From positions 1 to 64,000 of the forward strand of contig DWWL01000025.1 in assembly GCA_019119775.1 (NCBI GenBank): DNA of 64,000 nucleotides. The letters are read 5' to 3'. The notes under the pieces were generated by a model. The model had not been told where the DNA came from. It saw only the letters and a list, made by a program, of their open reading frames with translations, and made no database searches. Source of the DNA: Candidatus Lachnoclostridium pullistercoris. GTDB taxonomy: Bacteria; Bacillota; Clostridia; Lachnospirales; Lachnospiraceae. The position numbers and the translations under genes are program-made. Shown here in pieces: positions 42,028-59,264 of this stretch (its first letter is position 1; each line of letters begins with the position of its first letter).

Positions 42028-42220
42028 ATTTCACAGAAAACCTTATCCCCTGTGAAATAAAACACTCCGGGGAATCACACTGCGAACTGCATAATTTTAC
42101 CAATTTTTTATAAAATCAGTATTGATTTTTGTGGAAGATTTCTGTATAGTAAAGATAGTCAATTCCGGCTGGGCGTTCTGCCCGCCAGTGTTTATCACAT
42201 TTTCAGGAGGCATATCTATA

Positions 42221-58471: not shown

Positions 58472-58500
58472 TTGACAAAATAAGATCCGGGTACTATAAT
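58472..58500 (+). promoter_or_regulatory. Consensus sigma-A-type promoter
   Basis: TTGACA (58472-58477), 17-nt spacer, TATAAT (58495-58500); A/T-rich region upstream. Confidence 0.85.
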
Positions 58501-58506
58501 AAAGAC

Positions 58507-59065
58507 AACAGAAGAGATAGAAGAGAAAAATCTCTAAAGAGCTTATCTGCAGGAAGTTTTTTCAAAGGGGCGTATCCCGAAGAAGACTTTCTGAGAATAC
58601 CATCACAGAGACAGCGATATCTCAGATGAGGTATTTCAAAGAACAGTATCCTGAAGCGGAACATCTCAAAAAATTCAGGCAGGAGACGAGAAATCCACCG
58701 GAAATTGACAGAGAGCATCCAGAATAGGAACCTTTGAATAGGCTTGCGGCGAGAGATCCTCTCGGAAATGAATATCTCAGAAAAGGAGGTACAGTCCAAA
58801 GTACACAGGTGCTAATCCCCAGGAAGATTAAATGATCGTTTTGAGAGTCGATTTTTTTAAAAGTCACAGGACATGTTAAGAGAGTAGATGAAATTCGTTA
58901 AGAATAGAAAACGATCGGAAATCAAAAAATAGATTACTGATAACGGGGGATTTTATCAGAGCGAATGAAAGTTTCGCAATACAGGAAAAAGAGGTATAAT
59001 CCAATGGATACAATGATTTAGGAATGGGTACTGATTAGCAGAATCGGTATCCATTCCTATTTTAT
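58507..59065 (+). ncRNA. Candidate large structured non-coding RNA (~550 nt)
   Basis: Starts at the consensus promoter, no + strand ORF of 60 aa or more. Helices: AGAGAT/ATCTCT, CCTGAA/TTCAGG, GATCGTTTT/AAAACGATC, CTGATAA/TTATCAG, GCGAA/TTCGC. Ends at a 16-bp stem then T-rich sequence. Confidence 0.6.
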
Positions 59066-59075
59066 TGATCTTTTT
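59021..59075 (+). terminator. Terminator of the ncRNA candidate
   Basis: GGAATGGGTACTGATT / AATCGGTATCCATTCC (16 bp, 2 wobbles, 5-nt loop), followed by TATTTTATTGATCTTTTTT. Confidence 0.7.
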
Positions 59076-59230
59076 TCCATTCTTGATTCCCGTAGTTCTC
59101 TCGGAGATAAGCCGGACGGACATGACTGTGCGTCCATCCGTCGGCTGCCGCGAAAGTCCGATTCTTGCAGTTTGCTCAAGGGGAATTTTCAAGGGGGAAT
59201 TTGAGAAAAGTGAAATTTTTTGCCCATCAT

Positions 59231-59264
59231 AAAGCGGCCGGTTGAATTTCCGGCCGCTTTATTA
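59231..59264. terminator. Intrinsic terminator-like hairpin
   Basis: AAAGCGGCCGG...CCGGCCGCTTTATTAT, T/A flanks on both sides. Confidence 0.65.

Follow-up and report, generated by a model that had tools for sequence, protein, structure and literature searches.

A new RNA family of Lachnospiraceae ending in a conserved pentapeptide minigene

In a 64,000-nt contig segment of Candidatus Lachnoclostridium pullistercoris (hereafter the window), the plus strand at 58507..59065 carries the gene of a structured RNA of about 560 nt. This RNA belongs to a genuine and previously uncatalogued family, the members of which have a conserved pentapeptide minigene at the 3' end. Sequence comparisons give good support for a family that is restricted to Lachnospiraceae and occurs in about half of the sampled genomes; a dominant family of gut bacteria would thereby hold a widespread uncatalogued RNA for which Rfam has no model. 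The function is unproven. Every copy closes with a ribosome-binding site, followed by a conserved mini-gene of five codons and a terminator, so that the RNA probably engages ribosomes rather than being of the ROOL type.

Promoter, terminator and fold of the RNA gene

The promoter (58472..58500, +) is of the sigma-A type, TTGACA-N17-TATAAT, with an A/T-rich upstream flank. It matches the consensus at 12/12 positions, as the first-pass annotation had claimed, and similarly near-perfect promoters, very A/T-rich upstream, precede most members of the family. The start of the RNA was inferred from this promoter, whose closeness to the perfect consensus makes high expression probable. At the other end, an intrinsic terminator (59019..59066, +) combines a stem of 16-18 pairs, the base of which includes a stop codon, with a U-tract. 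The 16-bp stem annotated at 59021-59057 does form when G-U pairs are counted (59021-59036/59042-59057), and it extends to 18 pairs (59019-59059).

The computed fold energy of the 559-nt RNA was -150.1 kcal/mol vs a shuffled mean of -116.2 (z = -5.9, better than 100/100 shuffles). Since z was still about -3.2 after removal of the terminator, the structure of the RNA comprises more than its terminator. The gene is conserved in the genus and the family.

A long protein was considered for either strand and rejected. The window does contain minus-strand ORFs of 101 and 81 aa, but in relatives gaps that are mostly not multiples of three break every frame, so that no long frame survives across the interval in the homologues. 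The earlier statement that the interval has no convincing ORF thus holds for long frames, but it misses a conserved five-codon ORF at 59004-59021. The proposal of a structured RNA that is transcribed from a promoter and stopped by a terminator of its own is borne out by covariation and family-wide conservation, whereas its purely non-coding nature is not, the only part common to all copies being a Shine-Dalgarno/micro-ORF/terminator cassette. Because its only frame has five codons, a gene finder would miss the RNA. Between the RNA and an asparaginase-like gene lies a second strong inverted repeat (59230-59259, GCGGCCGG/CCGGCCGC), likely a further terminator.

Relatives share a 3' cassette

Nucleotide homologues with 74-88% identity were found in 7/8 other genomes of the genus; the copy in G008 is cut by the contig end, and that in G005 is a short version of about 260 nt, equivalent to the 3' half. 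Covariance model R1, built on the final 136 nt, gave matches in other genera, and these revealed a common 3' cassette: a Shine-Dalgarno site, ATG or TTG, five (rarely six) codons, a stop and a covarying terminator. A second model of the 3' end (R2), built from 34 sequences, matched 9/9 genus genomes, mostly at two loci per genome, and 215/397 sampled Lachnospiraceae genomes, about 45% being without a match. When a phylum-wide sample was searched with R2, only weak matches or background were obtained outside Lachnospiraceae; these weak matches (E about 1e-3, several spanning the hairpin half of the model only) were rejected as terminator background. Where loci carry an organism name, it is that of a member of Lachnospiraceae, Roseburia among them, except for one locus given simply as Clostridia bacterium. 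For the 85 members whose promoter could be recognised, RNA lengths of 130 to 779 nt were predicted (median 384, 45% A).

In the window, the cassette opens with the Shine-Dalgarno site GAGG (58991..58994, +), followed by a conserved UCCA before the start codon, the CC of which was invariant in 34 sequences. The micro-ORF (59004..59021, +) reads ATG GAT ACA ATG ATT TAG (MDTMI). Its start and stop were kept in 95/95 family modules taken from R2 matches, about 60 of which had not been used in building R2. Starts, all at the same place, were ATG in 74 modules, TTG in 20 and GTG in one, with no CTG; the in-frame stops were 48 TAG, 39 TAA and 8 TGA, and the length was five codons in 84 modules, six in 10 and ten in one. 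Starting at the stop codon, the terminator stem covaries at every modelled pair (16/16), with 95.3% paired among 95 distinct sequences and 302 double-changed cells vs 80 expected from shuffling. The RNA thus possesses the mark of dual-function or minigene RNAs, a conserved short frame that could be translated, complete with start, stop and Shine-Dalgarno site.

The window's own genome holds a second copy (contig C2:41681-41763, minus strand, promoter near 42109). This locus (L061, C2:41681-42109) has an MDEIV* cassette, belongs to another subclass and adjoins a convergent gene, presumably of the radical-SAM type. At two further loci, L165 (G143:C57) and L179 (G395:C12), two tandem RNAs occur, each with its own cassette and terminator, which suggests local duplication.

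Complementarity to the 16S rRNA 3' tail

Besides the cassette, the RNA contains an internal Shine-Dalgarno-like module (AAAGGAGGUACAGUCCA, 58782..58798, +), which has no start codon here and, in a computed duplex test, is complementary to the 3' tail of 16S rRNA; its k-mers are enriched in the bodies of family members. The most enriched body word set was AGGAGGUACGG[U/A]CC, and the corresponding module AAAGGAGGUACGG[U/A]CC lies within A-rich bodies of 130-780 nt, each with one or more Shine-Dalgarno modules. Most copies of the internal module are without a start codon; in some a start codon opens a tiny frame, e.g. MG*, MGT* or MGILHK*.

As the 16S end is unassembled in the window's own genome, the 16S tail GGCTGGATCACCTCCTTT was taken from family genomes in which rRNA is assembled, three of which (G021, G073, G078) carry the RNA. 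Both Shine-Dalgarno modules were computed to match this tail further than ordinary ribosome-binding sites do. The predicted duplex of AAAGGAGGUACGGUCCA with the tail reached -20.8 kcal/mol, and -14.7 when UCC was altered. Natural spacers gave stronger pairing with GGCUGGAUCACCUCCUUU than did their shuffled versions in each of 77 cassettes and each of 66 internal modules; because the modules are homologous, these count as one or two evolutionary observations and not as 143. Ordinary genes of the same loci (n=164) displayed no spacer effect (-12.53 vs -12.55), and TCC was present in only 7.

A Shine-Dalgarno-like site without a start codon and with predicted pairing to the 16S 3' tail is what characterizes a STAB-SD. 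The STAB-SD that stabilizes cry3A mRNA at its 5' end likewise lacks a start codon and can bind the 16S 3' end (PMC4113751); unlike in that element, the complement described here reaches toward GGA in the 16S tail, occurs repeatedly and stands in an RNA without a long frame.

From these features we tentatively favour, at rather less than an even chance, an independently transcribed Lachnospiraceae RNA of a new family that would engage ribosomes through its 16S-pairing module and its pentapeptide minigene. The body module would hold the 30S subunit in a STAB-SD-like manner, base-paired to almost all of the single-stranded 3' tail of 16S rRNA. A ribosome would initiate on the 3'-terminal minigene and run into the terminator hairpin with the stop codon at its base. 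Ribosome occupancy at both sites would set the stability and folding of the RNA. As a presumably abundant molecule, it would sense translation capacity in trans or serve as a sink for it, and no function of the peptide itself is required. Several points speak against ribosome engagement. A mismatch of 2-4 nt between GAGGU and UCC weakens the pairing with the 16S tail, and the conserved CC could serve RNA folding instead (GUCCA/UGGAU pairing). Furthermore, about 45% of the sampled family genomes are without a match, and a pure 30S-binding role leaves the great variation in the rest of the body unexplained.

An extended version of this proposal, which we regard as unlikely, is a whole class of abundant ribosome-capturing RNAs, in which repeated anti-16S-tail sites and an obligatory pentapeptide minigene set against a hairpin would sense or buffer translation capacity in Lachnospiraceae. 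To our knowledge, no class of RNAs dedicated to ribosome capture has been described. Should the RNA bind ribosomes, translation would be monitored or tuned in a new way; otherwise, the conserved pentapeptide of a widespread RNA would still have a role that is directly testable.

Structure of the RNA body

The body upstream of the cassette contains further conserved elements. All five short helices that had been proposed from the window alone are exact. Two of them, 58513/58530 and 58650/58674, were rejected as family features, since the alignment revealed that they are not retained in all relatives. The 5' domain (58513..58755, +), with two TTTCAAAG...GTATCC..GAAG units, aligned in part of the genus only and is missing from the shorter copies in G001 and G005.

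In the 3' half, covariation was found in the 9-bp helix (58834..58842 with 58908..58916, +; four covarying pairs among six genus sequences) as well as in a pseudoknot, and partly in two hairpins. Strand 1 of the pseudoknot, AAUCCCC (58814..58820, +), pairs with GGGGAUU (58946-58952), which is held in the loop of the conserved, partly covarying hairpin CUGAUAA/UUAUCAG (58937..58959, +). Across the subclass of the window (11 sequences, five genera), NAUCCYC faces the loop of the UGAUAA/UUAUCA hairpin in the same way, and 3/7 pairs change on both sides; these counts and those for the 9-bp helix come from short alignments of extracted arms. The second hairpin, GCGAA/UUCGC (58961..58977, +), exhibits three double-sided changes, its arms being ACAGU/ACUGU in G005. 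A second subclass is marked by a conserved hairpin loop, UGACGAGAAAG, with 29 occurrences in family loci (e.g. L116, L061, L176), in which the stems vary and pairing is kept.

These elements fit a trans-acting structured regulatory RNA, possibly an RNA-protein particle, in which the pseudoknot, the 9-bp helix and the hairpins would be the working part and the Shine-Dalgarno site and micro-ORF merely a 3'-end protection or decay mark. Structure beyond the terminator, the covarying pseudoknot and helix, and the conserved loop of the other subclass all argue for such an RNA; yet the body differs with subclass and length (130-779 nt) and the cassette is the universal part, and we consider this explanation possible but somewhat unlikely.

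Coding constraint on the micro-ORF

The consensus of the micro-ORF is M-D-E/S-I-V (also M-D-x-I/M-V). Among the modules, which vary synonymously, codon 3 was GA plus a purine (Glu) in 37/37 cases and AG plus a pyrimidine (Ser) in 24/24, Ser being encoded also by TCA; as the sequences are related, the Fisher value for this association cannot be read as a true probability. The choice of third base follows the first two in the manner required by the genetic code, and the constraint acts at the amino-acid level over codons 2-5. Judged by codon choice among the compared modules, this shows coding selection on the micro-ORF. At codon 4, Ile was encoded by AUA in 54/54 modules, a codon that accounts for only 9% (window) or 16% (loci) of all Ile codons. 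Whatever the amino acid, codon 4 ended in A or G in 94/95 modules, and a nucleotide-level cause of the AUA preference is therefore possible.

Both the amino-acid-level constraint and the invariable use of an otherwise rare AUA speak for the pentapeptide or its peptidyl-tRNA as the active product; as with bar-type minigenes or E-peptides, the target would be the ribosome or the tRNA pool. Short minigenes can indeed trap tRNA, and bacterial minigenes resemble the cassette in consisting of a Shine-Dalgarno site and 2-6 codons, although they usually lie in the leader of a longer gene and not at the end of a stand-alone RNA (PMC8708949). The purine preference at codon 4 allows a nucleotide-level cause, the window copy has AUG instead of AUA, and a peptide has no need of a leader of 250-700 nt; an active peptide thus appears doubtful.

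Genomic context

The genes next to the RNA differ between copies, which argues for an independent gene. By our assignments, the flanks comprise an RpiR-type regulator and a MATE transporter in G004, a MATE transporter and an asparaginase in G001, and unrelated genes in G005. A leader or riboswitch of the asparaginase gene was rejected on these grounds, this neighbour being common to only two of the copies examined (window and G001) and different in G004 and G005.

The downstream neighbours of 92 copies, which fall into several unrelated gene groups, lay on the same strand in 56 cases and on the opposite strand in 36. Directly downstream of 22 loci in many genera (e.g. L158, L165, L173), a same-strand homologue of one gene family was found, which we take by eye to be a GH3/NagZ-type hydrolase. 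Another 15 loci have a convergent downstream gene of one type, identified by eye as presumably radical-SAM-type. Conserved synteny at these 22 and 15 loci suggests old, vertical inheritance, and the GH3/NagZ-type neighbour may possibly indicate a functional link or plain synteny.

A translation-controlled attenuator, in which a ribosome on the micro-ORF would block the terminator and allow read-through into the next gene, could use the stop codon at the base of the terminator stem and would suit the 22 loci with a same-strand GH3/NagZ-type gene. It counts against this mechanism that Firmicutes commonly have an intrinsic terminator immediately behind a stop codon, and no conserved same-strand regulated gene follows the RNA throughout the family. 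Because the next gene faces the other way in 36/92 copies, and with downstream families that differ, we judge attenuation improbable.

Comparison with known RNA families

With Rfam 15 models at gathering scores, nothing but two tRNAs was matched in the window. Relaxed thresholds (E<=10) added only chance-level matches in the interval, and the element was without a match in 20 homologous loci; ROOL, GOLLD, OLE, raiA and every other Rfam family were rejected as its identity. A search of the window's own genome with the ROOL model (RF03087) yielded no match, a result that is weak alone because no control genome carries ROOL. By BLAST, phage and plasmid records gave no match either. One strict pattern found nothing in viral contigs; it excludes the window's own cassette and bears on relatives only. 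ROOL RNAs are located in phages or prophages or in tRNA islands (PMC12286853), whereas the neighbours of the window RNA are chromosomal genes.

A ROOL-like or other known large ornate RNA, the first suggestion of the initial annotation, is therefore largely refuted and highly improbable: similar size, promoter and terminator are set against the missing covariance match, the absence from the phages and plasmids searched and an about six-fold size variation among members. Its alternative suggestion, a new family, agrees with the negative Rfam searches of the window and the 20 loci, with covariation and with conservation across the family. Like ROOL, GOLLD, OLE and raiA, the RNA is a long structured Firmicutes RNA forming its own transcription unit; unlike them, it has no prophage or tRNA-island setting and contains a conserved micro-ORF. 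No published description was found in the literature searched, and an unnamed prior listing is possible in supplementary tables of large RNA screens, which lay outside the search.

By analogy, the closest mode of action would be that of a dual-function RNA in which a STAB-SD-like site is combined with an exceptionally short frame. It shares with SgrS/SgrT, RNAIII/delta-haemolysin and SR1/SR1P an independent structured RNA with promoter, terminator and short frame. The peptides of these dual-function sRNAs exceed about 25 residues, and the RNA bodies base-pair with mRNAs, whereas the frame described here has 5-6 codons and is set against the terminator. Just upstream of one copy lies a Clostridiales-1 RNA, of no known function (RF01699; L036:1032-1154, minus strand).
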